64,000 nucleotides of DNA, taken from positions 16,455 to 80,454 of the forward strand of contig SIBG01000005.1 of NCBI GenBank assembly GCA_009695305.1, read 5' to 3'. Position numbers and translations under genes: made by a program. Each line of letters starts with the position of its first letter. The first letter of the stretch is position 1. This DNA comes from Opitutus sp. (lineage in GTDB: Bacteria > Verrucomicrobiota > Verrucomicrobiia > Opitutales > Opitutaceae). The notes under the pieces are model-generated. The model searched no databases. It was not told the origin of the DNA and saw only the letters and a list, made by a program, of their open reading frames with translations. Of this stretch, positions 13,949-54,433 are shown piece after piece.

Positions 13949-15385
13949 ATGAACCACCCTCGCCCAGCAACAACCCTGCGTTCTCATTTTTCCGCCACCG
14001 CGACCTGCGTCGCGCTGCTGGTGGCCTGCGGCTGGCCGCTCGTCGCGCCCGCCGCCAACTGGCCGGGCTGGCGCGGACCCAACGGCGACGGCACCACCAC
14101 CGCCACGAAGAACCTCCCCGAGACGTGGAGCCCCACGCAGAACATCAAGTGGAAGCAGGAAATGCCGGCGTGGAGCGGCTCCTCGCCCGTCGTGTGGGGT
14201 GACCGTATTTTTATCAACAGCCCGTCGAAGGAAGTAGCGGCGGCCCCGGCTGAAACCCCGCCACCGGCCCCACCCGCCGGGCCTGACGGAAAAAAGGGAA
14301 AGGGGAAGGGCGGACCAGGCGGCGGGCGTGGCCCGGCCGGTGGGAGCATCGGCGGTCAGGAACTGCTGCTGCTGTGCCTCGACCGCGGGACGGGCCGAGA
14401 ACTTTGGCGGAAACAGGTCGACCGAGGAAACGAGTTCAAGATGCATCACAACTCGTCCAGCCCCTCGCCGGTGACGGATGGCGAGCACGTGTGGGTGGTC
14501 TCCGGCAACGGCCTGATCGCCTGTTTCGATTTCGCCGGCGCGGAAAAGTGGCGTTTCAATCTGGTGGAAAAATACGGCGTGCTCGGCGCCAACCACGGCT
14601 ACGGGTCCTCACCCGTCCTCGTCGACGGCAAACTCGTCGTGCAAGTCCTCCACGGCATGAAGACCAAGGAGCCGTCCTATCTCCTCGCGCTCGACCCGCG
14701 CACCGGCGCCGTGGTTTGGCGCGTCGAACGTGCAACCGACGCCCTCTTCGAATCTCCCGATGCCTACACCACGCCGGCGGTTGCCATGATCGACGGCCAG
14801 CGACAACTCGTCGTCCTCGGCGGCAACTACCTCACCGGCCACGCCGTCACGACCGGCGCGGAACTCTGGCGCGCCGGCGGATTGAACCCGAAGAACGACC
14901 GCACTTTTCGCGTCGTTCCCTCCCCGACCGTGCGCGACGGCATGATCTTTGCCCCGACCCGCAAGATCCCGCTCCTCGCCTTCCGCGCCGGCGGCCGAGG
15001 TGATATTTCCACCAGCCAGCTCGCGTGGAGTTGGACTGACCAGCGAAGCGCACCCGACGTGCCCAGTCCGGTGAGCGACGGCAAATATTTCTACATGGCG
15101 GGCGACAACGGCACGATCACCTGCCTCGATGCCAAAACCGGCGCGGTCATCTACGGCCCGGAGGACACCGGCGTCGGCCGCACGTGGGGCTCGCCGATCA
15201 TCGCGGACGGCAAGATCTACCTCACCGGCCAGACCGCTGAGACCGCGGTCATCCAGGCCGGCGCGGCCTACCAACTCCTCGGGAAAAACTCGCTCGACGG
15301 CAGCTACACGCTCTGCACCCCGGCGTTTGCGGATGGAGAGATTTTCATCCGCACGGGGACGCATCTCTATTGTGTGACGAAATGA
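13949..15385 (+). CDS. PQQ-like beta-propeller protein 1, exported
   Basis: The 478-residue protein has a signal sequence (residues 1-36, ending PLVAPAA) and the N-terminal signature NWPGWRGPNGDG. Repeated beta-propeller blades follow, each ending in a 'D-x-x-T-G-x-x-x-W' docking motif (DRGTGRELW, DPRTGAVVW, DAKTGAVIY). A Gly/Pro/Lys-rich insertion at about residues 85-130 (PPPAPPAGPDGKKGKGKGGP) interrupts the first blade and is probably a flexible surface loop. The length fits an eight-blade PQQ-like/BamB-like propeller without the extra parts of true quinoprotein dehydrogenases. The function is unknown. A longer reading upstream exists only because of the adaptor gene's opposite frame, so the ATG at 13949 is well supported. 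It is first of thirteen such genes. Confidence 0.9.
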   Translation: MNHPRPATTLRSHFSATATCVALLVACGWPLVAPAANWPGWRGPNGDGTTTATKNLPETWSPTQNIKWKQEMPAWSGSSPVVWGDRIFINSPSKEVAAAPAETPPPAPPAGPDGKKGKGKGGPGGGRGPAGGSIGGQELLLLCLDRGTGRELWRKQVDRGNEFKMHHNSSSPSPVTDGEHVWVVSGNGLIACFDFAGAEKWRFNLVEKYGVLGANHGYGSSPVLVDGKLVVQVLHGMKTKEPSYLLALDPRTGAVVWRVERATDALFESPDAYTTPAVAMIDGQRQLVVLGGNYLTGHAVTTGAELWRAGGLNPKNDRTFRVVPSPTVRDGMIFAPTRKIPLLAFRAGGRGDISTSQLAWSWTDQRSAPDVPSPVSDGKYFYMAGDNGTITCLDAKTGAVIYGPEDTGVGRTWGSPIIADGKIYLTGQTAETAVIQAGAAYQLLGKNSLDGSYTLCTPAFADGEIFIRTGTHLYCVTK

Positions 15386-15491
15386 CCGCGGCCCCACCTT
15401 GACCGACGTTGCGCAGCCCGCCGCGACAATTCATCCGACAGCCTCTGCCGCTGGCGACTGCGATGCCGTTTTTCACGAACGCGGGCCTGGA

Positions 15492-15561: not shown

Positions 15562-15580
15562 CTCGGGCCGTCCGCGGCCC

Positions 15581-16885: not shown

Positions 16886-18145
16886 CTACAGTTCCAAGCA
16901 CACGCCCTGCGTCGTGCTGCGGAGCAGGATCTGGCCGTCGCTAAATGCGGGGCTCGCCCAGACTTTGCCCTCGATGACCTTGGCGCTCGCGAGTTCGCGA
17001 TACGCCGTCGGCGTCGGCTCGATGAGCTTGAGCACACCGGCGTCCGTGGTCGCGACGAGCCGGTTCCCGACCATGATCACCTGGCTGGGCCCGAAGCCGG
17101 GCTGCGTCCATTGAATTTTCCCGGTTCGAATATCGATGCACTTCATGGGATTATTGCCGAAATCGCGATGCCCATAGAGCCCGTAAAGATAACCGTCATG
17201 CACGACGGCCGTGCTCCAATGCGCCTCCGCGTCCTTGCCCGGAATGCGCCACAGCTCGGTCACTTCCCATTGGTCCCCCGTGCGCTTGACTTGACAGGCC
17301 GCGCCGCCGACGCCGTAGGCCGCCGCGCAGTTGACGATGTCGCCCCAGACCACGGGTGAAGCGGCGGTCGAGGTGCGGTAGGGAAACGGATAGTGCCAGA
17401 GTTCGCGACCATTGGCGGGATCGCGGGCCACGATGCCACGCTCGACCATGAAGATGGCCTGTTGCACCCCGTGAATCGTCGCCACGATGGGGGTCGAATG
17501 CACGGCGCGGTCGCTGCCGGCTTTCCACAACACTTCGCCGGACTCCGCTTTGAACGCGAGGTAAGTCTGTCCGCTGCCGCCGCCCGCGACCAGCACGCGA
17601 TCTCCGATGACGAGTGGCGACGCGGCGTTCGCCCACGTGATTTCGTTGCCGCCGAATTCCTTGATTAGATCCCGCGTCCACTCGGCCGCACCCGTGGCGC
17701 TGTTGAGCGCGTGAAGATCGAACTTGCCGCCAAACACGAAAACTCGGCCGCCGGAGAAAACCGGGGTCGCCCGCGGGCCGTCGCCGCCGTCGTTGCCGGG
17801 CGCGCCACGTTCCCCGCCACCGCGGTAGCCCGTCACACCCAGTGGCGTTTGCCAGACGGTTTTTCCGCTCTGGCGATCGATCGCGATGGCGGTCTCGCGA
17901 CCATCGACCGGCACGACCGTGTAGGCCCGGCCTTCGCCAGTGACGAAGGAACTGAACCCGCCGCCCGCGGTGATTTCCCAGATCTTGCGCGGCTGGCCCG
18001 CGGTCCACGTCGCGGCGGCGATTTCCGCCGTCTTGCGGTTGCCGCTCGGGCCCATGATTTGCGACCAGTCGCCGGCCCGCGCGGCGGGAAGGCCGACGGC
18101 AAGCACGAGCGTGGCGAAAAGCGGGAGACGGGGAGAGGTTTTCAT
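16886..18145 (-). CDS. PQQ-like beta-propeller protein 2, exported
   Basis: The 419-residue protein has a signal peptide (MKTSPRLPLFATLVLAVGLP, cleavage near AARAG). The signature is diverged (DWSQIMGPSGNRKT), lacking the usual Arg-Gly-Pro. Blade motifs include DRQSGKTVW, NSATGAAEW, KAESGEVLW, DPANGRELW and DIRTGKIQW. The sequence GGGERGAPGNDGGDGP is an internal Gly-rich loop. The minus-strand start at 18143-18145 begins exactly with the signal peptide; longer reading upstream is not signal-like. It converges on the antiporter and diverges from the small membrane protein gene. Of the thirteen propellers this and proteins 4 and 13 are the most divergent at the N-terminal motif. Confidence 0.88.
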   Translation of the reverse strand: MKTSPRLPLFATLVLAVGLPAARAGDWSQIMGPSGNRKTAEIAAATWTAGQPRKIWEITAGGGFSSFVTGEGRAYTVVPVDGRETAIAIDRQSGKTVWQTPLGVTGYRGGGERGAPGNDGGDGPRATPVFSGGRVFVFGGKFDLHALNSATGAAEWTRDLIKEFGGNEITWANAASPLVIGDRVLVAGGGSGQTYLAFKAESGEVLWKAGSDRAVHSTPIVATIHGVQQAIFMVERGIVARDPANGRELWHYPFPYRTSTAASPVVWGDIVNCAAAYGVGGAACQVKRTGDQWEVTELWRIPGKDAEAHWSTAVVHDGYLYGLYGHRDFGNNPMKCIDIRTGKIQWTQPGFGPSQVIMVGNRLVATTDAGVLKLIEPTPTAYRELASAKVIEGKVWASPAFSDGQILLRSTTQGVCLEL

Positions 18146-18312
18146 GGAGCGGGCCGGAGCGGGCGAAGGGCCAGACGTATGAACCATCAAACCGATTCCG
18201 CCGACGCGCGAATTTCCAAGCGCGCCGGCCGCGCGCGGCGGGGCGCGGGTGATGCCGTGCATCCTTACCGCCCGTTGGCGCGTCTTCCGCGCAGTCGCGA
18301 CCCAGTAAAAAT

Positions 18313-19064: not shown

Positions 19065-20384
19065 ATGCCGACCAAGACCGCAACCCAATCCTACGACGCG
19101 ATCATCATCGGCGGCGGGCCCGCCGGCGCCTGCGCCGGCGCGATCCTCGGCGAATACGGCCACCGCGTGCTCATCCTCGAACGCGAAAAATTTCCCCGCT
19201 TCCACATCGGCGAATCGCTGATCCCGTTTACGTTTCAGCCGCTCCAGCGCATCGGCATGATTCCGAAAATGAAGGCGTCGGCCTTCCAGAAGAAATACAG
19301 CGTGACCTTCGTGCAACCGGACGGCCGGCGCTCGCAGCCCTTTTATTTTTTCAACCGCTACGACCGGGAGACCGTCGCGCAGACGTGGCAGGTGCTGCGG
19401 TCGGAGTTCGACCAGTTGATGCTCGACAACGCCCGCGAGAAAGGCGCCGAGGTGCGCGAAGAGACGACTGTCAACCGCCCGCTGCTGGACGGCGACCGCA
19501 TCGTCGGCGTCGAGGCCACCGACAAATCCGGCCGCACCTATGAGGTGCGCGCACCCATCACCCTGGATTGCACCGGCAAGGAGGCGTTCCTCTCGAACCG
19601 CAACGGCTGGCGCATGCGCGACCCTTACCTCAACAAGATTGCCGTCTGGACCTACTACAAAGATTCGAAACGCGGCGCGGGCATCGACGAAGGCGACACC
19701 ACGGTCGCCTACGTGCCGGACAAAGGCTGGTTCTGGCACATCCCGCAGCACCGCGGGATGACGAGCGTCGGGGTCGTCGCCGAGGGGAAGTATCTCACGC
19801 GCGATGGCTTCAAGGAGCCGAAGGAAATTTTCCATCGCGAGGTCGAGCAGAACCTCTGGATCAAGGACCGCCTGTCGGTCGGCGAGTGCACGGGCGAGTA
19901 TTACATCACGAGCGAATATTCGCGGCACTCCCGCTACTGCGCGTCGCCCGGCTTGGTGTTGGTCGGCGATGCGTTCGCGTTTCTCGATCCCGTGTTCAGC
20001 AGCGGCGTGATGCTCGCGCTCAAGAGCGGACAACTCGTGGGTGAGACCATCCACGTCGGCCTGCTGGCGGGCGATTTGTCGCCCGCGCGCTTCACGGCCT
20101 ATGGCGCGACGGTCCGGCAGGGCGTCGAAAACATGCGCAAGCTGGTCTACGCGTTCTACGACCCGAAATTTTCCTTCCGCGAAGTCATTGCGCGCTATCC
20201 CGACGCGGCCGGAGAAATCACCGACTGCCTCTCGGGCGACGTGAACAAGGATTTTTCCCAACTGTGGAGCCGCATCCGCGAATTCGTGCCGTTGCCGGAC
20301 GATCTACCCTACGGCGAACCGCTGGGAGCGGACGCCCTGGCGCGATCGTTGCCAACGGCCCAAAACGGCGGGCGGCCCGGCTGA
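19065..20384 (+). CDS. FAD-dependent oxidoreductase of the flavin-halogenase / geranylgeranyl-reductase-like superfamily
   Basis: The 439-residue protein has an N-terminal Rossmann FAD motif (IIGGGPAGACAG, residues 15-26), followed by EREKFPRFHIGESLIP, typical of the tryptophan/phenol halogenase-like family. A second FAD-contact motif is GDAFAFLDPVFSSGVMLA. Residues 222-227 read WFWHIP, matching the W-x-W-x-I-P signature of flavin-dependent halogenases; W-F-W-x-I-P variants occur in phenolic halogenases. Family relatives also include reductases and monooxygenases without halogenating activity, so the chemistry is not proven. I cannot confirm the catalytic Lys. It is probably co-transcribed with the membrane protein upstream and ends 9 bases from the convergent propeller gene. 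The ATG at 19065 is preceded by an A/T-rich TTTTTCTTCCCTC stretch rather than a clear Shine-Dalgarno. Confidence 0.85.
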   Translation: MPTKTATQSYDAIIIGGGPAGACAGAILGEYGHRVLILEREKFPRFHIGESLIPFTFQPLQRIGMIPKMKASAFQKKYSVTFVQPDGRRSQPFYFFNRYDRETVAQTWQVLRSEFDQLMLDNAREKGAEVREETTVNRPLLDGDRIVGVEATDKSGRTYEVRAPITLDCTGKEAFLSNRNGWRMRDPYLNKIAVWTYYKDSKRGAGIDEGDTTVAYVPDKGWFWHIPQHRGMTSVGVVAEGKYLTRDGFKEPKEIFHREVEQNLWIKDRLSVGECTGEYYITSEYSRHSRYCASPGLVLVGDAFAFLDPVFSSGVMLALKSGQLVGETIHVGLLAGDLSPARFTAYGATVRQGVENMRKLVYAFYDPKFSFREVIARYPDAAGEITDCLSGDVNKDFSQLWSRIREFVPLPDDLPYGEPLGADALARSLPTAQNGGRPG

Positions 20385-20393: not shown

Positions 20394-21665
20394 TCACCGC
20401 GCTGGAATTCCCCCGGCCGGCACGCCCACGCACCAGAGAAACTCTTCGCGTGGTTCGCCCTTTTTCGCGTGGCGGAGGTAGACGCGCCCGCCGCAGATGG
20501 CGGGCGAGGCGAACGCCTCGTCGCCGAGTTGGTTTTGCGCGAGGAGTTTGAAATGTTGCGGCGTCGCCTCGAACACGCTGGTCACGCCGCGCAGGCTGGT
20601 CGCGTAGACGCGATCACCGGCCATGATGGGCGAAGCGTAGAAGTCTTTGTCGACCTTTTCGCGCCACACCTCGGCGCCGGTGTCCGCGCGCCAGCAAAAG
20701 GCCGTGCCCGCGTCGAGCACGCCAAACAAATGGCCGTCGCGCACGAGGAGCGAGGGCACGTAAAGGCGCGCGGGCGATTGCCAGACGACCTGGCCCGAGC
20801 CATCGGCGGCGACGGCCGCAACGTGGTTGCGCGGGTAGCCACCGCTGATGAACACGCGCCGACCGTCGCTCGCGGCCGTGACGACCGTCTCCTCGGTCGA
20901 GCCGGCGGTTTCCCAGAGTTTCTGGCCCGTGAGGGGATCGAAGCTGACGACCAAGTTACAGCCGGCGAGCACCGCCTGCACGCGGCCGCCGATGGTAAAA
21001 ATTGCCGGCGAGGCGTAGTTGGGAATTTTCGGACGCGCCTGCGACCAGATGATTTTCCCCGTGGCGCGATCGAGGCCGGCCACGCGGCCGCCGGCGCGGT
21101 TGTCGGCCGCGACGATGACGACGTTTTCGTGGACGACCGCCGAGGCACCGAAGCCCTGATGCACCTGGTAGTCTGCGACGCGCGTCTGCCAGAGAATTTT
21201 GCCGGCGGGGTCGAGTGCCGTGGTGTGAATCGCCTGGCCATGGAGAAAATTGATGTAGAGCCGGTCGCCATCGCACACCACGGAGGCGGACGCCGCGGAC
21301 GAGTTCTTGTGGTTGCCGGACTCGAGCGGGCCGCGGTGGACCACGGTTTGCCAGAGCTGCCGGCCGGTGCTGCGATCGAACGCGATGACGAGCTGCTCGC
21401 TGGTGGCGCTGTCGGCGGTGGCGAGGTAGACGCGCTCGCCAGCGACGGTGGGCGAACCGTGGCCCTTGCCGCGAACCGATGCGCGCCAGAGCACGTTTTC
21501 GGTCTCGCTCCATTTGACCGGGGCGTTTTGGTCCGCCGCCGCCTGGCCGTCGCGCGTGGGGCCGCGCCACGCGGGCCAGTCGGCACTCGCACCGGCGCGA
21601 GCGAGGGGCGGGGCGAACGAGCCGAGCAGGAGGGAGAGGAGCGCCAGCCGGTAAAAAAATTTCAT
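20394..21665 (-). CDS. PQQ-like beta-propeller protein 3, exported
   Basis: The 423-residue protein has a signal peptide (MKFFYRLALLSLLLGSF, cleavage near LARAG) and the signature ADWPAWRGPTRDG. Blade motifs include DRSTGRQLW, DPAGKILW, DRATGKIIW, DPLTGQKLW and RADTGAEVW. It has a His-rich stretch LESGNHKNSSAAS that recurs in similar form in propeller 5 (THRPGNKNAGYANGSA) and propeller 7 (IHDKNSPASPTPI); in this superfamily that loop is conserved between the first and second blades. It ends nine bases from the halogenase-like gene on the other strand. Upstream is a 376-base gap with three short GTGGGGCAAAAA repeats, but no gene. Confidence 0.9.
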   Translation of the reverse strand: MKFFYRLALLSLLLGSFAPPLARAGASADWPAWRGPTRDGQAAADQNAPVKWSETENVLWRASVRGKGHGSPTVAGERVYLATADSATSEQLVIAFDRSTGRQLWQTVVHRGPLESGNHKNSSAASASVVCDGDRLYINFLHGQAIHTTALDPAGKILWQTRVADYQVHQGFGASAVVHENVVIVAADNRAGGRVAGLDRATGKIIWSQARPKIPNYASPAIFTIGGRVQAVLAGCNLVVSFDPLTGQKLWETAGSTEETVVTAASDGRRVFISGGYPRNHVAAVAADGSGQVVWQSPARLYVPSLLVRDGHLFGVLDAGTAFCWRADTGAEVWREKVDKDFYASPIMAGDRVYATSLRGVTSVFEATPQHFKLLAQNQLGDEAFASPAICGGRVYLRHAKKGEPREEFLWCVGVPAGGIPAR

Positions 21666-22041: not shown

Positions 22042-22350
22042 TTGATCTTCATTGAGGATTCAGCTTTCACCAAAGCCCGCGAAACCCTGCTTTCCGATGA
22101 CGATTTTTACGCGCTGCAAAACTGGCTCCTCGTCTCTCCCGAGAGCGGCGCGGTCATCCAGCGGAGCGGCGGTTGCCGAAAAATTCGCTGGGCGGCCAAG
22201 GGACACGGCAAGCGGGGCGGCGTGCGCGTGATCTATTTTTACCGCCTCTCCGCCGCCGAAATCCTCCTTTTGGAAATCTATCCGAAAAACGAAAAAGAAG
22301 ACCTCACCGCCGAAGACTTGAAAAGACTTAAAAGGAAAATCAACCCATGA
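22042..22350 (+). CDS. RelE/HigB-family toxin
   Basis: The 102-residue protein resembles the HigB/RelE-like family often annotated as addiction-module toxin RelE. It begins MIFIEDSAFTKAR and contains the helix LLSDDDFYALQNWLLVSPES and the strand motifs KIRWAAKGHGKRGGVRVIYFYR and ILLLEIYPKN. The family cleaves mRNA, usually on the ribosome, and basic residues in the Arg-Trp and Arg-Val-Ile-Tyr-Phe strands are typical active-site positions. The start is TTG at 22042; no ATG in frame gives a full first helix. The antitoxin gene overlaps it by four bases, in the toxin-first order typical of higBA. A nearby palindrome may be its operator. Confidence 0.85.
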   Translation: MIFIEDSAFTKARETLLSDDDFYALQNWLLVSPESGAVIQRSGGCRKIRWAAKGHGKRGGVRVIYFYRLSAAEILLLEIYPKNEKEDLTAEDLKRLKRKINP

Positions 22351-30126: not shown

Positions 30127-30243
30127 GGCGGGAGCGGGATTGAGGTTTTGGGCAGACGGAGAGAAATAACGAAATTTCGCGGAGCGGTGACAAATCAAGC
30201 GCTCAGCATGACAAACATGGGAAAAGGCATCGGAGGTTGCTCG

Positions 30244-35498: not shown

Positions 35499-35666
35499 CA
35501 AAAAAGCAGCGGAGAGTTTCACGAAGGGTAGATCGCGGAGTGGGACCGCGGGAAAGCGCCCCCCATGAACCAAACTGTCGCGCGCAAGACAAGGCCGATC
35601 GCGGTTCCAGCAAACTCGGTGCGATTGCCTCGTTGCATCCGGCCGACGCCCACGTTGGCTCTGACG

Positions 35667-41274: not shown

Positions 41275-41433
41275 CCGCCCTCCTCTCGAACTGACTGTTT
41301 CGACGCCCGATTAGAACACGGTCCGCCCACGAAAAATCTGGACGGTGGGTCGCACCTTCGGGCAATGGTGAAGCGTCCTGACTGCCGGTGCTCCCACCGC
41401 CGCGCCGAGCCCACATCTTCAAACCCACTTCCC

Positions 41434-45120: not shown

Positions 45121-47412
45121 ATGAGCATCACCGCCCGCCTCCGTCCCCTCGCCCTCGTGTGGTCTATCGGCCTCAGCGTGTGCAGCCTGCACGCCGCCTC
45201 CGGCTGGCTCAACTGGCGCGGGCCAGACCAGAACGGCATTTCGCCCGCCAAGCAAAAGCTCGTCACCGACCTCACCCTCGGCGGGCCCAACGACCGCTGG
45301 ACGTTTAAGGCCCACGGCGCGGGGACGCCCGTCATCGCCGACGGCCGGGTCTACGCCATGTGCTACTACGGCGAGACCGGCGGCGACGTCGAAGAAGCGA
45401 TCGTGTGCCTCGACGTGAAGAACGGCGCGAAGCTCTGGGAACACCGCTTCAAGGACTTCCTGAGCGACACCGTCTACAACCGCTACGCGATTGGCGCCCC
45501 CTACGTCGAGGCCGAGACGGGCAACATCTACTGCGAATCGGCCTGCGGCGTGATCACGTCCTTGACGCGCGACGGAAAAATCATCTGGCAACGCTCCATG
45601 ATGGAGGAGTTCGGCCGCCTGACATTTCCGAACAGTCGCACCGGCGCCCTCGTCACCGATGGAGAGTTCTTGTATGCCAAAGGCATCACCGCCAATTGGG
45701 GCACCGACGGCCCGGCGCGCAACCGCTACTACGCGTTCGAAAAACGCACGGGCGAGCTCGTCTGGGCGAGCACCCCGGGAGTTGAGCCGGTCGACAATCC
45801 CATGGGCGCGCCGGTCTTCGGCGATCTCGGCGGCCATCGTGTCTTCTACGTCGGCACCGGCTGCGGCCACGTCGCCTGCATCAACGCCCGCACCGGCGAA
45901 CCCGTCTGGCGCTTCAAGCTCTCCAACGGCGGCCTCAACTCCGACGTCCTCCTCGCCGGTCCCGGCAAGCTCATCGCGATCCACGGCAAGGAAAACATCG
46001 ACACGTCTACGCAAGGTCGCCTCGTCGCCCTCAAGATTCCCACCGAATATCCCACGGGCCCAAAGCCCGTCATCCTCGGCAAAGAGGCCGAGCTCTGGCG
46101 CAACGACGAATTCAGCGCCTTCACCAGCTCACCGCTGCTCGTCGACGGCCGCGTTTACTCCACGGGCACGACCGGACTCTTCCAATGCGCCGACGCTGCG
46201 ACGGGCGCGACGATCTTCGCCGAGAAACTCGGCGCCGACCAAGTCCACGCCTCGCCCGCCTATGCCGACGGCCGCTTTTACGTGCCGATGCACGAGGCGC
46301 GCTTCTTCGTCATCGAGGTCAAAGGCGACAAGCCCGTCATCGTCTCGAACAACAAGATGGAAGCCGGCACCGTCTGCCTCGGTTCACCGGCGTTCTACGG
46401 CGACTCGATTTTCTATTTCACCAAAGACGGCCTGCACTGCTTCGGTCCGAAAACCAGCGCGCCAATCATCCCGGCCGCGATTCCCGGGCCCGCGCCCGCC
46501 GCGCTCTCCACCGCGCCCATCGCGGCGCTGCAAGTCGTGCCAGCGGAGTTCACGCTTTACGCCGGCCAGTCGCAGGCGTTCAAAATCTGGGGCCTCGACG
46601 CCACCGGGCGCCGAGTGAAGGACGTGACCGCCGAGACCACTCTCGCGAAATTCATTCCTCCCACCGCGCTCGTGAAATCCGAGGTCGATGGCGAGATCGT
46701 GGGCAACGTCGTCAAAACCACCCCGGCCGCGAAGATCTCCGCCGGCTCCTTTCAGGCCAAGTGGAACAACCTCGCCGCCACCGCTCGCGGCCGCATCCTT
46801 GCCGGTTACGGCTACAAGGAGAACTTCGACGCGTTGCCCCTCGGCCAGAAAAACACCGAGGGCACGGATGTCGGGTTCCCGCCGCTGCCCTGGCTCGGCG
46901 CGCGCCTGAAGTGGCACGTCTTCGAGCGCGACGGCGGCAAGGTTTTGGGCAACCGCCTCGATTCGCTCCTCTTCATGCGCACGATGAACTTCATCGGCGG
47001 CCCCGACATGAAAAACTACACGATCGAGGCCGACGTGATGACCGACGGCAACCGCCGCATCATGTCGAACGTAGGCCTCATTAACCAGCGCTACCTGTTC
47101 AACATGGCCGCCAACAACCGCATCCTCGAAGTCACGAGCAACGCCGAGCGCTTCACGGCTTCCGTCCCCTTCGAGGCCGCCGCCAACACGTGGTATCACC
47201 TGAAGACGCGCGTGGACCACGACAAGACGGGCGAAGGCGGCTTCGTCCGCGCCAAACTCTGGCCGCGCGCCGAACCCGAGCCCGCCAAGTGGACGCTTGA
47301 AGTGCATCAGGCCAAGCTCCACACGCACGGCGCCCCCGCCGTCTACGCCTTCTCCCCGCAAAGCCAAAAGCGCGTCTTCATCGACAATCTCGCCATCACC
47401 GCCAATGAATAA
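45121..47412 (+). CDS. PQQ-like beta-propeller protein 11: propeller, Ig-like and lectin-like fusion
   Basis: The 763-residue exported protein has a signal peptide (residues 1-25, LALVWSIGLSVCSLHAAS) and a propeller signature GWLNWRGPDQNG. The propeller fills about 27-450, with blades such as DVKNGAKLW, RDGKIIW, EKRTGELVW, NARTGEPVW and DAATGATIF. A Pro/Ala linker (about 450-470) leads to an Ig-like domain (VVPAEFTLYAGQSQAFKIWG, about 475-565). The C-terminal part (about 570-763; YTIEADVMTDGNRRIMSNVG, ANTWYHLKTRVDHDKTGEGG) resembles a laminin-G/concanavalin-type sugar-binding or glycoside-hydrolase-like jelly roll. Such fusions suggest carbohydrate targeting. Its stop overlaps the start of protein 12 by eight bases. 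Confidence 0.87.
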   Translation: MSITARLRPLALVWSIGLSVCSLHAASGWLNWRGPDQNGISPAKQKLVTDLTLGGPNDRWTFKAHGAGTPVIADGRVYAMCYYGETGGDVEEAIVCLDVKNGAKLWEHRFKDFLSDTVYNRYAIGAPYVEAETGNIYCESACGVITSLTRDGKIIWQRSMMEEFGRLTFPNSRTGALVTDGEFLYAKGITANWGTDGPARNRYYAFEKRTGELVWASTPGVEPVDNPMGAPVFGDLGGHRVFYVGTGCGHVACINARTGEPVWRFKLSNGGLNSDVLLAGPGKLIAIHGKENIDTSTQGRLVALKIPTEYPTGPKPVILGKEAELWRNDEFSAFTSSPLLVDGRVYSTGTTGLFQCADAATGATIFAEKLGADQVHASPAYADGRFYVPMHEARFFVIEVKGDKPVIVSNNKMEAGTVCLGSPAFYGDSIFYFTKDGLHCFGPKTSAPIIPAAIPGPAPAALSTAPIAALQVVPAEFTLYAGQSQAFKIWGLDATGRRVKDVTAETTLAKFIPPTALVKSEVDGEIVGNVVKTTPAAKISAGSFQAKWNNLAATARGRILAGYGYKENFDALPLGQKNTEGTDVGFPPLPWLGARLKWHVFERDGGKVLGNRLDSLLFMRTMNFIGGPDMKNYTIEADVMTDGNRRIMSNVGLINQRYLFNMAANNRILEVTSNAERFTASVPFEAAANTWYHLKTRVDHDKTGEGGFVRAKLWPRAEPEPAKWTLEVHQAKLHTHGAPAVYAFSPQSQKRVFIDNLAITANE

Positions 47413-49006
47413 CTTCGAAATTCCCTTCTCCGGCGTAGGGCCGGCGCTTGTCGCCGTGCCGCGGCTTGCCGGCAAGCGGCAGCCCTACAAAATCCTGTTC
47501 GCCGCAGCGCTCCTGGCGACGCCCCTGCTTCGCGCGGCCGACTGGCCCATGTGGGGCGGTTCGCCCACGCGCAACATGGTCTCCAGTGGCAAGGGCCTCC
47601 CCGCCCCCGACGAAATCGCCGCCGGAAAATTTCTCCCGAAGAGCGAGACCATCGATCCCAAGTCCACCAAGAACGTGCGCTGGGTCTCGAAGCTCGGCTC
47701 CCAAGCCTACGGCAGTCCCGTCGTGGCGGGCGGACGCGTTTTCGTCGGCACCAACAACGAGGCGCCCCGCGATCCCAAGCAGACCGGCGACCGCGGCATC
47801 TTGATGTGCTTCGACGAAAAGACCGGCGAATTCCTCTGGCAACTCGTCGTCCCGAAACTCGGCTCCGGCAAGGTCAGCGACTGGGAATACGTCGGCATCT
47901 GCTCCTCGCCCGCGATCGAAGGCGACCGCGGCTACGTCGTCACCAATCGCGGCGAAGTCGTCTGCTTCGACGTCAAGGGCCAGTCCGACGGCAACCAAGG
48001 CCCGTTTATGGATGAAGGGAAATTTTCCGCGCAAGACGGCAAACCCACCGAAGTCACTCCCAAGTGCGCCGACATCCTCTGGGTGAGCGACGTCCGCACC
48101 GAGCTCGGCATCTTCCCCCACAACATCTCGAGCTGCTCGCCGCTCATCGTCGGCGAAAAACTCTACATCGCCACCTCCAACGGTGTCGACTGGTCGCACC
48201 TGAACATTCCCGCACCCTTCGCCCCGGCCGTCGCCGTGCTCGACAAAAACACCGGAGCCGTCGTCGGCGAAGAAATCTCCGGCGTCTCGAAACGCGTGCT
48301 CCACTGCAGTTGGAGTTCTCCCTCCTTCACCACCGTCAACGGCCAGGCCATGGTCGTGTGGGGCGGCGGCGACGGTTGGTGCTACGGTTTCGATCCCGTG
48401 CCCGTGAAAGACAAAGACGGCACGCCCGTCCTCAAAGAACTCTTCCGCTACGACGCCAATCCGCCCGAGTATCGCAACAAGGACGGCCAGCCCCTGAAAT
48501 ACGCGACCTTCAACGGCCCCAGCGAACTCATCTGCACCGTCGTCGTGCAAGACGGCCGCGCCTACATGTCCATCGGCCAAGACCCCGAACACGGCGATGG
48601 CATCGGCATGTTCAGCTGCATCGATCTCAACGGACGCGGTGACCTCAGCGGCAAGGCCCTCTGGACCAGCAAGGGCATCGGACGCACGATCTGCACCCCG
48701 AGCGTCGTCGGCGGGCTGGTTTTCCAAGCCGAGTATAACGGCAACATCCACTGCTTCGACGCCAAGACCGGCAAAGAGCAATGGGTCCACGCCACCAATA
48801 GCCGCATCTGGTCATCCACTCTCGTCGCCGACGGCAAAGTCTACTGCGGCACCGAAGACGGCGAACTCGTCGTCCTCGCGGCCACGCGCGAGAAAAAGGT
48901 CGTCGGAAAAGTCGAGTTCTACAGTCCCATCTACAGCACGCCAGTGATCGCCAACGACACCCTCTTCGTCGGCACGATCACCCACCTGTATTCCATCGGC
49001 CGGTAG
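47405..49006 (+). CDS. PQQ-like beta-propeller protein 12, 'WPM-GG' sub-clade, with REP-encoded N-terminus
   Basis: The 533-residue protein has the signature ADWPMWGGSPTRNMVSSGKG, shared with protein 6, and it is longer than protein 6 because of inserts such as DGNQGPFMDEGKFSAQDGKP and VPVKDKDGTP. Blade motifs include DEKTGEFLW, DKNTGAVVG and DAKTGKEQW. The ATG at 47405 overlaps the previous gene. The first 30 residues (MNNFEIPFSGVGPALVAVPR and following) come before the real signal-like stretch (KILFAAALLATPLLRAADWP), and the DNA there is a palindromic repeat (47435-47488), so the N-terminus is partly repeat-derived. A later non-ATG start cannot be excluded. Export still seems likely. Confidence 0.87.
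   Translation: MNNFEIPFSGVGPALVAVPRLAGKRQPYKILFAAALLATPLLRAADWPMWGGSPTRNMVSSGKGLPAPDEIAAGKFLPKSETIDPKSTKNVRWVSKLGSQAYGSPVVAGGRVFVGTNNEAPRDPKQTGDRGILMCFDEKTGEFLWQLVVPKLGSGKVSDWEYVGICSSPAIEGDRGYVVTNRGEVVCFDVKGQSDGNQGPFMDEGKFSAQDGKPTEVTPKCADILWVSDVRTELGIFPHNISSCSPLIVGEKLYIATSNGVDWSHLNIPAPFAPAVAVLDKNTGAVVGEEISGVSKRVLHCSWSSPSFTTVNGQAMVVWGGGDGWCYGFDPVPVKDKDGTPVLKELFRYDANPPEYRNKDGQPLKYATFNGPSELICTVVVQDGRAYMSIGQDPEHGDGIGMFSCIDLNGRGDLSGKALWTSKGIGRTICTPSVVGGLVFQAEYNGNIHCFDAKTGKEQWVHATNSRIWSSTLVADGKVYCGTEDGELVVLAATREKKVVGKVEFYSPIYSTPVIANDTLFVGTITHLYSIGR
47435..47488. repeat. REP-like inverted repeat inside the start of propeller 12
   Basis: The ends GTAGGGC (47435-47441) and GCCCTAC (47482-47488) are perfect inverted repeats, and the inner CGGCTTGCCGGCAAGCGGC forms a further hairpin. 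The element is read in frame as part of the predicted N-terminus of propeller 12, upstream of its hydrophobic signal region. Confidence 0.65.
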
Positions 49007-49060: not shown

Positions 49061-50494
49061 TTATTTCGCCGTTTCCGTCGTCGTCTGGTAAGCCCGCGCG
49101 CGGAAGAGGAAGTCCACGATGCTGCCCTCGTGGGGTTGGAACCAGTTGAGCTGCACGGTGGGCATCGCCCCGATGTTCAGGCGGTCGATGTTGCGCGCGT
49201 CGAGCAGCGCCCGGCTGAATTTCGCGTCCTTCGTGATCGCCGAACAAACCAGCGTCTGGCCGATCTTGGCGAGCATCTGCTCCTGCGGGCACTCGACGAC
49301 GGTGGCGAAGGGAAACATGTATTCCTTTTTCACCATCGCCACCTCGGGCGAAGCGCAATGCACGATGGTGGGGCGCACGTAGTCGCAGCGCTCCATCTTC
49401 ACCAAGCGGTCGCCGCCGCGATACTTCGCCGTGACGTCCACGACGCCGGGTTCCTTGAGCGCAGCCTCGATGTCCTTGTCGATTCCTTCCGCCTGGCCCG
49501 TCACCGTAAAGGCGGCGAGGGCGGCCTTCGGATCCGTGGGCGGCAGCGGCGCGATGGGGCCGAGCTTTTTCGCGAGGGCGTCGGCGATCTCCTTCGTGTG
49601 GCGGGAGGCCCAGACGCCCGAGCAGTTGATGCAACCGCGGCCGCTGTTGATGGCGATGCTCGTCGCCATCAGGTCGATGTATTTCTCCCAGTTGTCCACC
49701 TCGTCGTCGCCGAGGAGAATTTTGCTGAAGCCGGGACCGTGCACTTGGACGGCGGGGTTGCCGTGGTAGCGTTCGACGGTGGCGGTCGAGCCGAAGATGA
49801 GCGTCTTGGGGCAGTGGGTGAGCACGGCGGCGCCGACTTCGGCCGCGCCAGGATAAATCGAGATCGCCTCCTTCGGGATGCCCGCTTGAAAAAACGCCTG
49901 CGTCATCCGCCAGGGCGTCCAAGGTTCCTGCGGTCCGGGTTTCAGGACGAGGCCGATTTGCAGCGGGATGATCGGGAGCCAGAGGCCGTGCACCCCAGGC
50001 GAGTTGGAGGGCAACACCATGCCGAGCACCGGCGTCAACGCCTGATAGCTGCGCATGACGCCGTTCTCCATCCCGTAGCCGCGCGTGAGGATATCGAAAT
50101 CCAAGCCGCGGGTCAGCGAGGAGAGGATGGCCTCGAGATTTTGGAGCACATAGGCGAGCTTCCCCATGTTAAAGCGGGACATGTGCTCGGGGAGTCCCGT
50201 CGTGGCGGACTGGCATTTGACGAACTCGTCGGGCGTCTGCGTGCCGTCACCCGCCGGGAGCGTGGCGTTGATGAAGAGGTCACCGGCCTTGCGGCACATC
50301 GCGAGCAGCTCTTTACAGGGAATTTCCCGGAGCACGGCGCGCGCGCGCTCCGCGTGCCGCATGTCGCGCGCGATGATGCCGGCGTTGGCCTGGCTGACCT
50401 CGGCCAGCTGCTCGCCCGTGGCGTGATGGAAGACTTTGTCGACTTCCAAGCTTTTGTAGGGCTCGCCCCAGCGGAGGATTGGGAAATGAATCAT
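49061..50494 (-). CDS. Aldehyde dehydrogenase-family protein (possible acyl-CoA/carboxylate reductase)
   Basis: The 477-residue cytoplasmic protein shows an ALDH-type fold: a nucleotide-site region (GMVLPSNSPGVHGLWLPIIP, then LVLKPGPQEPWTPWRMTQAF) and a catalytic region INSGRGCINCSG with candidate nucleophiles Cys288 and Cys291. It is not a standard retinaldehyde-type ALDH. Length, the lack of the usual P-W-N-F-P box and its neighbouring AMP-ligase recall LuxC-like acyl reductases, which reduce activated acids to aldehydes. The upstream ligase gene on the same strand, 106 bases away across a repeat, is probably co-transcribed, and an iron alcohol dehydrogenase lies divergently beyond. The direction and substrate of the reaction are unknown. 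Confidence 0.82.
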   Translation of the reverse strand: MIHFPILRWGEPYKSLEVDKVFHHATGEQLAEVSQANAGIIARDMRHAERARAVLREIPCKELLAMCRKAGDLFINATLPAGDGTQTPDEFVKCQSATTGLPEHMSRFNMGKLAYVLQNLEAILSSLTRGLDFDILTRGYGMENGVMRSYQALTPVLGMVLPSNSPGVHGLWLPIIPLQIGLVLKPGPQEPWTPWRMTQAFFQAGIPKEAISIYPGAAEVGAAVLTHCPKTLIFGSTATVERYHGNPAVQVHGPGFSKILLGDDEVDNWEKYIDLMATSIAINSGRGCINCSGVWASRHTKEIADALAKKLGPIAPLPPTDPKAALAAFTVTGQAEGIDKDIEAALKEPGVVDVTAKYRGGDRLVKMERCDYVRPTIVHCASPEVAMVKKEYMFPFATVVECPQEQMLAKIGQTLVCSAITKDAKFSRALLDARNIDRLNIGAMPTVQLNWFQPHEGSIVDFLFRARAYQTTTETAK

Positions 50495-50600: not shown

Positions 50601-51710
50601 TCAATACACTCCGACGGTCGTCGTCGCGGCGAAGACGCGGTAGGGTCGCACGCCGCTCACGCCGTCCCACGGAAACTCCGCGCACGGCGCCTCGAGTTCC
50701 GCTTCGTCGCGTTCGAAAAAGCGGGGCACGAAGAACTCCTTCGTCAGCGTGGTGATCATGACGCGTCCGGTCTGGCCGTGCTGGGTGATGGGTTTCTCGT
50801 TATCGTCGACGTCCACGAGTTGAATGACGGCGCGAGGCTGGGGCGCGTGGTAAATGATCTTGAATTGGTTCTCGGGACGGAGCGTCTCCGCGCGCGCGAG
50901 GCCCATGAGCGTGTTGCCGTAGCACGCGGCGAGGTAGACTTTGGGGCCGAGCAATTCCTCGACGGCGAACCGCGCCCATTGCGCGGTCATCTCGGTGCCG
51001 CCGCAGAAGATGCCCGTGATGCCGGACTTTTCGATGCTGGACCCCTTGGCCTCCAAGCGCGCGGCGAGCGCGTCGAGCAGCTTGGGCGTGACGAACATGC
51101 ATTTGATGTCGTGGCCGGCGGAAAGAATCGTCAGGGCCTGATCGATCACGTGATCAGAGTAGAGTTTCAGTTCGTCCATCTTGCCGCGCTTGATCAGCTT
51201 CACGACCCAGCGCGGGTCGAGATCGACACAAAAACAAATCCCGCCGCGATGTTGGCAGAGATGCTCGACCGCCAGGCGGAGGCGGCGCGGGCCGGACGGC
51301 CCCAGCATGAGCCAGTTGGCGCCTTTCGGAAATTGGGCGTCCGGCAGGGTCTCGGAGAGCATCTCGTAGTCGATGCGGAAGTCGTCGACGACCACGCGGC
51401 TCTTCGGGATGCCAGTGGTGCCGCCGGTTTCGAAGACATAGGTGGGTTTGTTCGCGTAGGCCTTGGGCACCCAGCGGCGGACGGGGCCACCGCGGAGCCA
51501 CTCGTCCTCGAAGTGGCCGAAGCGGTTGAGGTCGGCGAATGACTTGACCTCCTGGCGCGGATCCCATCCGGCCTGCTTGGCCCATTCGAGCCAGAAGGGC
51601 GTGCCGGTCTCCGGGGAGAAATGCCATTGGATGATTTCGCGGACGTGAGCGTCCAGCTTTTCGGCGGCGCTCTTGACGGCGGCGGGGGAGACGGAGGCAG
51701 TCTGGCTCAT
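50601..51710 (-). CDS. AMP-forming ligase of the PaaK / LuxE-like group
   Basis: The 369-residue protein has the adenylate-forming core: the P-loop-like FETGGTTGIPKSRVV (about residues 89-103), an aromatic/Tyr-rich mid-region, and GRVMITTLTKEFFVPRFFERDE near the C-terminus, where these enzymes usually have their hinge. Length and motifs fit phenylacetate-CoA ligase-like or LuxE acyl-protein synthetase enzymes rather than full-length acyl-CoA synthetases. It would activate a carboxylic acid as an adenylate or CoA ester for the aldehyde dehydrogenase encoded next. The ATG at 51708-51710 was chosen because the longer reading adds only basic, non-conserved residues. Confidence 0.85.
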   Translation of the reverse strand: MSQTASVSPAAVKSAAEKLDAHVREIIQWHFSPETGTPFWLEWAKQAGWDPRQEVKSFADLNRFGHFEDEWLRGGPVRRWVPKAYANKPTYVFETGGTTGIPKSRVVVDDFRIDYEMLSETLPDAQFPKGANWLMLGPSGPRRLRLAVEHLCQHRGGICFCVDLDPRWVVKLIKRGKMDELKLYSDHVIDQALTILSAGHDIKCMFVTPKLLDALAARLEAKGSSIEKSGITGIFCGGTEMTAQWARFAVEELLGPKVYLAACYGNTLMGLARAETLRPENQFKIIYHAPQPRAVIQLVDVDDNEKPITQHGQTGRVMITTLTKEFFVPRFFERDEAELEAPCAEFPWDGVSGVRPYRVFAATTTVGVY

Positions 51711-52026
51711 GGGTGGCTTTTCTTTTGGGCGGTGTTCAATGGATAAACTTCGGGTGGTCCCTGCGACCATCTGCCGTCAGGATGAGCCGAAGACGCAAAC
51801 CTCGGTCTGGCCCGCCGTCAACGGGCGAGTAGCGAAACTGTCCACCGCATTCGCCCGATCAATTTCGATGCGGGAGGCTCGTCCCTGCGATTTTGTTTCG
51901 GCCAACTCAGCGCCGGAACGAGAATACCCTTGTCCGCCCTTTAGGAACTTGTCGGGCTGGCCTGTCCGCGGTGTGCGCGGTTTTCCCATTGCCTCACCTG
52001 TCCTTTCCGCGTCCGCCGCCTCCCCC
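51711..52026. other. Gene-free divergent region between ligase and alcohol dehydrogenase genes
   Basis: These 316 bases carry no gene that I can support. They must hold divergent promoters for the ligase/aldehyde dehydrogenase pair and the iron alcohol dehydrogenase, but I see no clear -10/-35 pair or operator. Confidence 0.5.
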
Positions 52027-53175
52027 ATGATCAATCCTTTCGCCTCCCGACCCGCCCCCAAGCTCGTCTTCGGACCGGGTGCGCTGCGAGAACTGCCCGC
52101 CTGCGTGCGCGAGGTCGGCGGTTCAGCGGTGTTGCTCGTCAGCGACCGCGGGCTTGCGGGCTCAGGTCACCTCGACCGCGCGCAACGCCTCCTCGAAGCC
52201 GCGGGCATTCCGGTTTCGGTCTTCGCCGACGCGCAGGAAAACCCCACCGAGGCCGACGTCGCCGTGTGCCGCGACCACGCGCAGGGCCAGACCTTCGACT
52301 GCCTCGTCGCCCTCGGCGGCGGCAGCAGCCTGGACACCGCCCGGGCCTGTAATTTTCTCCTCACCAATGGTGGGGCGATGCGCGACTACCACGGCTACGG
52401 CAAAGCCGTGAAGCCCATGCTGCCGTTGATCGCGATCCCCACGACCGCCGGCACTGGCAGTGAAACGCAGTCCTACGCCCTCGTCAGCCGCGACGACACC
52501 CACGAGAAGATGGCTTGCGGCGATCCGAAGGCGCGGGCCCGCCTCGCCCTCCTCGATCCCGAGCTAACGGCCACGATGCCGCAGTCGGTCGCGATTCTCT
52601 CCGGCCTCGATGCGCTTTCCCATGCGCTGGAGTCGGCGGTCTCCACGCGGCGCAACGAAATTTCCGCCCTTTATTCCGAGGCGGCGTTTGGTCATCTCGC
52701 GATCGCGATCAACCGCGTCGTCGCCGGCTCGGCCACCAGCGACGACCGCGGCCACATGCTGCTCGGCGCGGCTCTGGCCGGCCTGGCCATCGAGAACAGC
52801 ATGCTCGGCGCGGCCCACGCGTCGGCCAACCCGCTCACCGCCCGGCTCGGCGTCGTGCATGGTCAGGCCGTGTCGCTGATGCTCCCGTCCGTGATGCGGT
52901 TCAACTCCGCGGACCCCGCGACGGCCGCCATCTACGCCCGGTTATCGGACCGACTTAAAGCCTCGGGCGTCACGTCGCTGCCGGTGATTGATTGGGTGGT
53001 GGAGTTGATCAGCCAAGGTGCCCTCCCCTCGGTCGCGATCGCCGCGTCCGCTCTGCCCACCCTCGCGCAAGACGCGTCGAAACAGTGGACGGGGCAATTC
53101 AATCCCCGCGCGTTGCAGGTCGACGATTACGTCACACTCTACCGCCGTGCGCTTTCGATCCATGTCACCGGCTGA
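52027..53175 (+). CDS. Iron-containing alcohol dehydrogenase
   Basis: The 382-residue protein has the group III fold: a dinucleotide motif GGGSSLDTA (residues 97-105), the conserved 'PTTAGTGSETQ' stretch (139-149) and the metal-binding set Asp195, His199, His264 and His278 (LSGLDALSHALES, GAAHASANPL, GVVHGQA), which matches the canonical spacing. It interconverts an alcohol and an aldehyde or ketone with NAD(P)H and Fe2+ or Zn2+. Divergent from the ligase/aldehyde dehydrogenase pair, it would complete an acid-aldehyde-alcohol series, and the genes probably belong together. The ATG at 52027 begins the conserved N-terminus FASRPAPKLVFGPGAL. Confidence 0.92.
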   Translation: MINPFASRPAPKLVFGPGALRELPACVREVGGSAVLLVSDRGLAGSGHLDRAQRLLEAAGIPVSVFADAQENPTEADVAVCRDHAQGQTFDCLVALGGGSSLDTARACNFLLTNGGAMRDYHGYGKAVKPMLPLIAIPTTAGTGSETQSYALVSRDDTHEKMACGDPKARARLALLDPELTATMPQSVAILSGLDALSHALESAVSTRRNEISALYSEAAFGHLAIAINRVVAGSATSDDRGHMLLGAALAGLAIENSMLGAAHASANPLTARLGVVHGQAVSLMLPSVMRFNSADPATAAIYARLSDRLKASGVTSLPVIDWVVELISQGALPSVAIAASALPTLAQDASKQWTGQFNPRALQVDDYVTLYRRALSIHVTG

Positions 53176-54433
53176 TCGTTGCATCGTAGGCCGCGAGCTT
53201 GCTCGCACTCCGTGCCTGCCCAAGCGCGAGCAACCTCGCGGCCTACGGGAAGCCCTATCGGCCGCGCTCCTCGCGTGCGCCTTGGCCTTTACCGCCTGCG
53301 GCGACCGCTCCACCCCGGACTCGAAAAAAAAATCCGCCGCCCAAAAAACCACCGCCGCCCCCGAAATTTCCTGGCCCATGACCCGCGGCGGTCCCGCGCT
53401 CAGCGGCAACGTGGCCGCGAACCTCCCCCGCGATCCCGTGATCGCGTGGACGTTCACCGCGTCGGGCCCGATCTCCGCCGAAGCGGCCATCGTCGCCGGC
53501 CGCGTATTCGTCGGCACCGGCAAGGGCACGCTGCACTGCCTCGCCGCCGACACCGGCCGGGAGCGGTGGCACTTCGACACGAAGGACGCCATCACCGCCG
53601 CGCCCGCCCTCGCCGGCGGCCGAGTATTTCTCTCCTCCAACGACGGCCGGCTCTACGCCCTCGCGGCCGACACCGGCCAAGAGGCCTGGCAGTTTGCGAG
53701 CGAGGACAAGATCAGCGCCGGCGCGATCGCGATCAAGGCGCCCGATGGCTCCGCCGACTGGGTGCTGCTCAACGGCTACGATGGCACGACCCGCGTGCTC
53801 AACGCCGCCGACGGAAAAATTATTTGGAGCTACAAGACCGAGGACTTCATCAACGGCTCTCCCGCGGTCGTCGACGGCCGCTTCCTCGTCTTCGGCGGCT
53901 GCGATGCGCAACTCCACGTCGTGAACCTCAAGGACGGCACGCTCGTGCACAAGATTCCCACCAGCGCGCAAATCCCGGCCTCGATCGGCACCTTCGGGAC
54001 GATGGCGTTCTGTGGCAACTACGCCAATCAGACCGTGGCCTTCGACGTCATTGGCGGCAAAGTCGCGTGGACTTACGAGGACCGTTCGCTCCCGTTCTTC
54101 AGCTCGCCCGCCATCAACGAGCGCCTGGTCTTGATCGGTTCGCGGGACAAGAGCCTGCACGCCATCCACCGCGCGACCGGCGAAAGCGCCTGGAAATTCA
54201 AGACGGGAGGCCGGATCGAGGGTTCGCCGATCTTGTTTGAGGATGGCGTGGTCTTCGGCTCGACCGACGGCCGGCTCTATGCCGCGGGCCTCGACACGGG
54301 CGCGGAGCTCTGGCAACTCGATCTCGGCGAATCGCTGGTCGCCTCCGCCGCTTTCGGTGATCACCAGATTATCGTGAGCGGCGAAAAGGGCACGGTGTTC
54401 GCAGTTCGCAGCCGCGCGCCGCAAAAACCCTGA
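53162..54433 (+). CDS. PQQ-like beta-propeller protein 13, BamB-like lipoprotein
   Basis: The 423-residue protein has a lipobox (residues 43-48, LAFTAC) followed by GDRSTPDSKKKSAAQ. The signature is diverged (SWPMTRGGPALSGN). Regular blades are AADTGRERW, AADTGQEAW, DGKIIW, HRATGESAW and DTGAELW, giving the most even repeat pattern of all thirteen. This is the form closest to the outer-membrane assembly lipoprotein BamB, although the role is not established. The ATG at 53162 overlaps the alcohol dehydrogenase gene by 14 bases, and the first 30 residues are encoded by a palindromic repeat (53186-53246). A start after the repeat would remove the n-region, so I keep 53162 with caution. Confidence 0.85.
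   Translation: MSPADRCIVGRELARTPCLPKREQPRGLREALSAALLACALAFTACGDRSTPDSKKKSAAQKTTAAPEISWPMTRGGPALSGNVAANLPRDPVIAWTFTASGPISAEAAIVAGRVFVGTGKGTLHCLAADTGRERWHFDTKDAITAAPALAGGRVFLSSNDGRLYALAADTGQEAWQFASEDKISAGAIAIKAPDGSADWVLLNGYDGTTRVLNAADGKIIWSYKTEDFINGSPAVVDGRFLVFGGCDAQLHVVNLKDGTLVHKIPTSAQIPASIGTFGTMAFCGNYANQTVAFDVIGGKVAWTYEDRSLPFFSSPAINERLVLIGSRDKSLHAIHRATGESAWKFKTGGRIEGSPILFEDGVVFGSTDGRLYAAGLDTGAELWQLDLGESLVASAAFGDHQIIVSGEKGTVFAVRSRAPQKP
53186..53246. repeat. REP-like inverted repeat inside the start of propeller 13
   Basis: GTAGGCCGCGAGCTTGCTCG (53186-53205) pairs with the right arm at 53226-53246, with one mismatch over 21 bases. It lies between the alcohol dehydrogenase stop and the propeller's lipobox, and is translated in the predicted N-terminus. 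Confidence 0.75.

Follow-up and report, generated by a model that had tools for sequence, protein, structure and literature searches.

What are thirteen exported beta-propeller genes doing side by side on one contig of an Opitutus genome, and which of them belong together? Propellers resembling those that carry pyrroloquinoline quinone (PQQ) count among the proteins of unexplained function that have expanded most in Verrucomicrobiota and Planctomycetota, and the stretch analyzed here (the window: 64,000 nucleotides of Opitutus sp., assembly GCA_009695305.1, contig SIBG01000005.1, positions 16,455 to 80,454) holds thirteen such genes in 40 kb, which the original prediction took for a dense local amplification within one envelope system. 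We found that the cluster is real and that its border had been misplaced: its conserved part is an operon, previously missed, which runs from position 45121 to the contig end, starts with one propeller gene (A) and includes two others (B and C). A and B consistently accompany a conserved pathway, one that probably makes a chorismate-derived aromatic compound. With moderate confidence, we read A, B and C as parts of a conserved operon with a predicted role in building an aromatic compound from chorismate, and as proteins that likely bind and process this compound outside the inner membrane. The source assembly is 87% complete (136 contigs, 4.29 Mb), and the right edge of the window (64000) is the contig end, genes past it lying outside the view.

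The order of the operon in the window is A, B, aldh, amp, adh, C, rSAM, cl, gt, te, mem, lig, lolD and ftsX, while fad lies apart from it at 19 kb, as it also does in G174, another genus within the family of the source. The genes are as follows (coordinates, strand, description).

45121 to 47412, plus: A, exported propeller with a C-terminal region (PF13360, 86 bits)
47405 to 49006, plus: B, exported propeller (orthologues 42-75%)
49061 to 50494, minus: aldh, aldehyde-dehydrogenase superfamily (PF00171, 78 bits)
50601 to 51770, minus: amp, EhpF-like adenylating enzyme (EhpF profile match)
51673 to 53175, plus: adh, iron-containing alcohol dehydrogenase (PF00465, 156 bits)
53162 to 54433, plus: C, BamB-like propeller with a lipobox (PF13570, 181 bits)
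54480 to 55814, plus: rSAM, HemN-like radical S-adenosylmethionine (radical-SAM) enzyme (PF04055 and HemN_C)
55612 to 56391, plus: cl, chorismate-lyase-fold protein (predicted fold; true start probably about 55,800)
56388 to 57683, plus: gt, GT4 glycosyltransferase (PF00534, 102 bits; orthologues keep the order)
57680 to 58162, plus: te, 4HBT thioesterase (PF13279, 48 bits)
58183 to 58704, plus: mem, small hydrophobic protein (present in 9 mapped genomes including the source; no Pfam family above cut-off)
58712 to 59962, plus: lig, phenylacetate-CoA-ligase-like protein of PaaK/FlxY type (NCBIfam PaaK 174-182 bits and FlxY 112 bits, all below cut-off)
60102 to 60791, plus: lolD, ATPase of an ATP-binding cassette exporter (TIGR02211, 238 bits, cut-off 308)
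61668 to 64000, plus: ftsX, MacB/FtsX permease truncated by the contig end (PF12704, PF02687)
19065 to 20384, plus: fad, flavin-dependent-halogenase family (the open reading frame opens at 18837)

The true start of adh is probably about 52,050, because its domain begins there. The aldh product is a distant aldehyde-dehydrogenase relative (43% to the G012 and 47% to the G013 orthologue), and its gene lies here on the opposite strand, unlike in the other mapped loci. An IS200-type Y1 transposase (60864-61316) separates lolD from ftsX in the window.

The one-direction order A-B-SSS-amp-aldh-adh-C-rSAM-cl-fad-gt-te-mem-lig-lolD-ftsX, where SSS is a sodium symporter, was found in G012, G013, G237, G303, G333 and G291, and most of the full loci of the G012 type have a TonB receptor and a propeller of the D type (see below) close by. 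G324 has the full order with no match for cl, and partial operons are present in G000 and G174 (both without SSS and with fad elsewhere), G354 and G334. Among the best 80 rSAM loci of named genomes, many of them broken by contig ends and nearly all from Verrucomicrobiota and a few assigned to Acidobacteria or Phycisphaera, we found cl in 75, C in 63, fad in 57, gt in 49, te in 46, mem in 41, lig in 36, adh in 33, aldh in 32, lolD in 30, amp in 29, B in 27, ftsX in 27, A in 22 and SSS in 18. From these 80, C immediately precedes rSAM in 50 of the 71 loci with 1.5 kb of upstream room, and cl is next downstream in 66 of the 71 with 0.9 kb of room; moreover, A or B was also seen in 26 of the 29 loci that have both amp and aldh. 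Operon parts also occur on contigs labelled Acidobacteria, Bryobacteraceae and Phycisphaera (L125, L161 and L158), by transfer or mis-binning.

Co-occurrence was followed in one draw of 387 Verrucomicrobiota genomes, in which rSAM was called by a profile match at E 1e-80 (up to four candidates scored per genome) and B was scored with a profile on up to three candidates per genome. rSAM was found in 19 of the 387. B is present in every one of these 19, at 605-977 bits, and among the 368 rSAM-negative genomes, 15 of which hold weaker B-like proteins, the highest score was 543 bits; the limit of 600 bits was picked post hoc, once the scores were known. A stands beside B in 20 of 20 rSAM-positive genomes (the 19 and G013, which is outside the draw; 10 mapped near rSAM and 10 found by the B search), and beside a B-like propeller in none of eight loci (L196-L203) from rSAM-negative, propeller-rich genomes. 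In 10 of the 20 genomes the A-B pair is on a contig other than that of rSAM; in G213, G201 and G083 the pair is truly unlinked, because both contigs extend at least 28 kb, and a contig break is possible in the other seven. In addition, fad was found in all 13 rSAM-positive genomes tested (at least 493 bits), whereas eight of nine rSAM-negative genomes tested had no match at E 1e-60 and the ninth, G004, gave 250 bits. The random scatter in related genomes that would have counted against the original prediction was not seen, and A-B is in every one of the 20 rSAM-positive genomes. Because A and B are paired in all 20 rSAM-carrying genomes, they likely bind or process the molecule of the operon.

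Orthologues of A are 32-53% identical in 7 genomes, and its C-terminal region appears, judged by eye only, to be immunoglobulin-like and lectin-like. The AlphaFold2 model of B is an eight-bladed propeller (predicted local distance difference test, pLDDT, 74), nearest to designed propellers and to BamB, which is among its best natural matches (Foldseek and VIA); these neighbours show the fold and not the function. In the alignment of B, residues of the types Asn, Asp, Glu, His and Arg are invariant at many sites; spread along much of the sequence, these polar residues suggest a ligand site. C has a lipobox-like N-terminus and matches the BamB model TIGR03300 at 177 bits, below the cut-off of 285.

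Among the enzymes, rSAM forms a subfamily of its own (15 others are 44-94% identical to the window copy), with CxxxCxxC invariant in 16 of 16, and its profile matches HemN (1olt) at 195 bits and the methyltransferase NocN at 130 bits. Pfam gave no match for cl at E 1, so its fold is a predicted one: the AlphaFold2 model of the G012 orthologue (pLDDT 93.7) matched in Foldseek the DUF98 protein 2nwi (E 3e-7; template modelling scores, TM, 0.67/0.74) and chorismate lyase 1g81 (E 6e-5; TM 0.58/0.62). Of 120 relatives listed, 8 bear the JGI name chorismate-pyruvate lyase. R74 and E173 of cl, invariant in 16 of 16, are candidate counterparts of the catalytic Arg and Glu of UbiC. The fad protein is 52-53% identical to the operon copy of G012 and 50-51% to that of G013, and it matches halogenases in the PDB at 249-289 bits (8zop, 3e1t, PltA, ChlB4, CmlS). 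Its WxWxIP motif (W298, W300, I302, P303) and K153 are invariant in 12 of 12 and align with 8zop, 3e1t, PltA and ChlB4; halogenases have an active-site Lys. In G249 (L087:17812-19602), cl and fad are one frame of 597 residues, the first 179 of which fall on the cl profile with 34% identity. The amp profile matches EhpF (3l2k, 3hgu) over its full length (7-357 to 12-366, 208 bits), and hhalign gave no clear relation of amp to lig (probability 2%).

From these enzyme families we infer a candidate route. cl would cut chorismate to a hydroxybenzoate, whose ring would then be halogenated or hydroxylated by fad; loading as a thioester and later release would fall to lig and te, and the HemN-like enzyme would add carbon or a methyl group. 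The EhpF type has a reducing role, and together amp, aldh and adh would turn the carboxyl into an aldehyde or alcohol; gt would attach a sugar and LolD/FtsX would export the product, some form of which the TonB receptor would take back up. The exported A and B and the lipoprotein C would hold or oxidise the product, and the remaining ten propellers would be older relatives retained near the operon, with ligands that may differ from those of A, B and C. These ten are as follows.

13949 to 15385, plus: P1, WPxxRGP type (G174 81%, reciprocal)
16886 to 18262, minus: P2, D type (PF13360 and tree)
20394 to 21665, minus: P3 (G174 66%, reciprocal)
23127 to 24554, plus: P4, D type (G174 47%, reciprocal)
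24692 to 25951, plus: P5 (G174 77%, reciprocal)
25948 to 27312, plus: P6, B-like paralogue, clusters with the B family (G174 82%, reciprocal)
27350 to 28615, plus: P7 (G174 70%, reciprocal; 57% to P10)
35667 to 37109, plus: P8 (PF13360, 74 bits)
39846 to 41198, plus: P9 (G174 78%, reciprocal)
43524 to 44840, plus, TTG start: P10, duplicate of P7 (57% to P7)

All thirteen propeller genes are where they had been placed and score 74-140 bits against PF13360, whose cut-off is 27.6 bits; their total, given earlier as 18.6 kb, came to 18,489 bp on recount (P2 read from 18145 and P10 from an in-frame codon at 43602). The export signal claimed for all of them agrees with a hydrophobic stretch in 13 of 13, found by a simple hydropathy scan that used no signal-peptide predictor (mean at least 2.0 over 12 residues within the first 90). 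The N-terminal motif W-x-x-x-R-G-P/A is present in eight (P1, P3, P5, P7, P8, P9, P10 and A) and diverged in P2, P4, P6, B and C, as had been allowed for some. The blade end exists as a repeat and had been misspelled, since three residues and not two precede the W (D-x-x-T-G-x-x-x-W); with D/N and T/S permitted, each protein has 0-4 copies, at least one in 12 of 13 and none in C, against a mean of 0.00-0.04 in shuffled proteins. The density is beyond chance: the whole genome has 38 PF13360 matches at 24 places (one of which, C72, is merely a frame of 152 amino acids), and 13 of these places lie in this 40-kb stretch, where 0.23 would be expected if 24 genes were random over 4.29 Mb (binomial P ~1e-20).

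The alignment and tree proposed with the original prediction (72 rows) did recover families shared across genomes, and they spoke against a single recent expansion. The thirteen split into A (9 rows, 100/99), B with P6 beside it (8 rows, 100/99), C (9 rows, 100/100), a D group (P2, P4) and a W-P-x-x-R-G-P group (P1, P3, P5, P7, P8, P9, P10; 28 rows, 99/96), with A, B and C each present as a single copy per genome and a ninth B copy (G354) joining P6 weakly (81/42). A single recent local amplification was therefore rejected: the tree gives old, separate and supported families, and the best-hit pairs listed within the window are 22-35% identical, P7/P10 alone being close at 57%. The P1 clade also includes operon-region copies from G012, G237 and G303. 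P8 has an insert with an EF-hand-like stretch (EF-hand_5, PF13202, 19 bits, below its cut-off), and the other 119 of the 120 relatives listed for P9 are 70-81% identical. A separate local expansion was observed in G012 (L035, G012:C68, 39.8-53.7 kb), where eight same-direction propellers near the operon form their own clade.

One contig of G174 carries reciprocal best hits for seven of the ten propellers outside the operon (P1, P3, P4, P5, P6, P7 and P9), together with those for a Na/H exchanger, the TonB receptor, fad, A, B, C, rSAM, cl and gt; P2, P8 and P10 had no reciprocal best hit on the matching contig. The link of the TonB receptor to the array is upheld. For the DUF1501, DUF1549, WD40-cytochrome, nitrilase and FG-GAP genes, a search at E 1e-10 gave nothing; it covered the stretches compared from G174, G012, G013, L099, L103 and the other propeller loci of the source genome, and not whole genomes. 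On these hits and non-hits, we take the array of propellers to be ancient and common to both genera, whereas the genes mixed in with it look like later arrivals. Thus, of the "one envelope system" proposed earlier, a linked system does exist and the membership of the cytochrome, DUF1549, DUF1501, nitrilase and FG-GAP genes is unsupported. The surrounding features are as follows.

41365 to 43527, plus: TonB-dependent receptor (PF07715 plug; reciprocal best hit in G174, 66%, and G012, 38%)
28654 to 36746, minus: DUF1501, DUF1549/DUF1553 and PSCyt1-WD40 genes, which we take to be a common planctomycete-type set; the last frame overlaps P8 and the real gene is probably shorter
22042 to 22694, amid the propeller genes: RelE-like toxin and helix-turn-helix antitoxin pair (PF06296, PF01381)
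5988 to 12684, minus: LpoB-like, TPR and DUF1425 proteins adjoining an AcrB-type resistance-nodulation-division pump

Does the operon account for the propeller-rich state of these bacteria? With first-look PF13360 candidates as a proxy for propeller number, scoring being capped at this scale, at least 30 were counted in 17 of the 19 genomes with the operon and in 17 of the remaining 368 (Fisher p 2e-18; 185 unlisted genomes without a PF13360 match were counted as below 30). Within family f1 six operon genomes (34-92 candidates), three of them from one genus, rank above all 31 others (1-25; p 4e-7), and within family f14 two (34, 37) rank above the 7 others listed (3-23). Of the 17 propeller-rich rSAM-negative genomes, 16 have only HemN-type matches of 113-176 bits and one has none. 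Hence, the operon accompanies propeller-rich genomes and is not required for them.

Several observations weigh against our reading of A, B and C. The idea that propellers always need the operon had to be dropped, and most propellers do not require the pathway, because 17 propeller-rich genomes lack it. PSCyt1, tried as a control family, proved to be enriched in operon genomes too (matches in 16 of 19 rSAM-positive and 45 of 368 rSAM-negative genomes), so that lifestyle could account for part of the propeller excess; in family f14 the two operon genomes (35, 85) are not separated by PSCyt1 from the 13 others listed (8-72). Kinship among the genomes, which are not independent samples, may inflate the A-B/rSAM pattern. 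In the 29 named loci where rSAM has 9 kb of sequence to either side, cl was present in 29, C in 23, fad in 23, B in only 13 and A in only 11, so A and B often lie elsewhere than rSAM. A strict single B clade was rejected (approximately unbiased test, p-AU 0.0008), since the P6 copies of the window and of G174 and two f39 copies group separately. The cl model also matches the effector domains of GntR-type regulators (PhnF, DasR; E 4e-5 to 5e-5), and because they match equally the fold cannot decide between an enzyme and a ligand-binding protein; the best PDB matches of its sequence profile are weak (Nup50 E 0.002, DUF98 2nwi E 0.015). The NCBIfam matches listed for the ten window proteins scanned (C being the only propeller among them) are all under their cut-offs, and the chemistry, ligand and product are predictions from gene families.

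Could the propellers work with a redox cofactor? PQQ itself is unlikely, because not one of 37 genomes had PqqE above the cut-off of TIGR02109, 381 bits (weaker matches, of at most 126 bits, were seen in 20; PQQ might be taken up from outside), and no Cys-Cys pair occurs in the thirteen propellers. PQQ quinoprotein dehydrogenases have a vicinal Cys-Cys disulfide at the cofactor. Alternatively, the operon may make a new quinone-type redox cofactor that A, B and perhaps other propellers use instead of PQQ. This is an unlikely explanation in our judgement: it would fit the 20 of 20 pairing of A-B with rSAM, the propeller-rich state of 17 of 19 rSAM genomes, the sub-threshold PqqE and the invariant polar and charged residues of B, but 17 propeller-rich genomes do without the pathway, no site for the cofactor was located, and the carboxyl-reducing module and the glycosyltransferase meet no obvious need of a quinone cofactor. 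Just as doubtful is the broader proposal of a system spread across Verrucomicrobiota, whose cytoplasmic enzymes would derive from chorismate an aromatic redox cofactor or mediator distinct from PQQ; after export, it would serve A and B, as a dedicated pair of periplasmic enzymes, and the lipoprotein C.

An equally low probability falls to the propellers being BamB-like scaffolds of outer-membrane assembly whose linkage to the operon is functionally meaningless. The natural matches of the B model and the best matches of C, which are to BamB models, speak for it, yet C stays below the BamB cut-off, A-B and rSAM co-occur even where they are unlinked, and general scaffolds would be unlikely to follow a biosynthetic gene across the seven family groups of the draw. 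Slightly less probable again is a catabolic locus, in which the TonB receptor and the sodium symporter import an aromatic glycoside for degradation by the propellers and enzymes. The receptor is indeed at the locus, SSS is part of most complete copies (though absent from the window and G174), and degradative routes, too, employ CoA ligases and dehydrogenases of alcohols and aldehydes; however, the chorismate-lyase fold, radical-SAM enzyme, glycosyltransferase and LolD/FtsX exporter suit synthesis, and no ring-cleaving enzyme was recognised among the scanned window genes. Least probable of all, and very improbable, is that the locus represents a variant of the aryl-polyene or flexirubin-type pigment clusters with accessory propellers. 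It shares several kinds of part with them (hydroxybenzoate head, halogenase family, FlxY-like ligase, thioesterase, glycosyltransferase), but a Pfam scan of 43 open reading frames of the window recovered no domain of a ketosynthase, carrier protein or dehydratase.

Two propellers of a kind with no assigned function thus track one biosynthetic pathway through 20 genomes of several families, even where unlinked, and this makes it testable whether A, B and C bind its predicted product. If the redox cofactor or mediator were real, it would be the first ligand for the unexplained propeller expansions of these bacteria. Searches of open-access papers aimed at the operon or its propellers found no account of it, most subscription journals being outside their coverage.

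Parts of the system can be placed beside known ones. rSAM belongs to the sequence family of HemN (1olt) and the class C radical-SAM methyltransferases (NocN, 9p2u), with CxxxCxxC and the HemN_C domain in common, although as a subfamily of its own it is far from HemN (195 bits by profile). Aryl-polyene and flexirubin clusters combine hydroxybenzoate-type head-group enzymes with a ketosynthase system; the head-group enzymes, FlxY-like ligase, thioesterase and glycosyltransferase recur in the operon, whereas no chain-building ketosynthase system was seen among the window genes scanned. With BamB and the PQQ quinoproteins, the propellers have in common the eight-bladed fold (in the B model) and the tryptophan-docking repeats, and they differ in having no vicinal cysteines, PqqE below cut-off, C below the BamB cut-off and a tie to a biosynthetic operon. 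The propellers of hydrazine synthase are the subject of PMC12758564. In the tailoring of griseoluteic acid (ehp) in Enterobacter agglomerans (PMC3175449), we see a counterpart of amp, which is a full-length EhpF match and adjoins an aldehyde dehydrogenase; no phenazine genes were recognised here, and a different substrate is expected. Compared with the bmp-type bromophenol pathways and the 4-BP cluster (PMC10579414), no P450 was recognised here and halogenation is predicted. The operon likewise has a chorismate lyase-like protein and a member of the flavin-dependent halogenase family, here adjacent and once fused, and it adds to them a radical-SAM enzyme, a carboxyl-reducing module, a glycosyltransferase, an exporter and the propellers.

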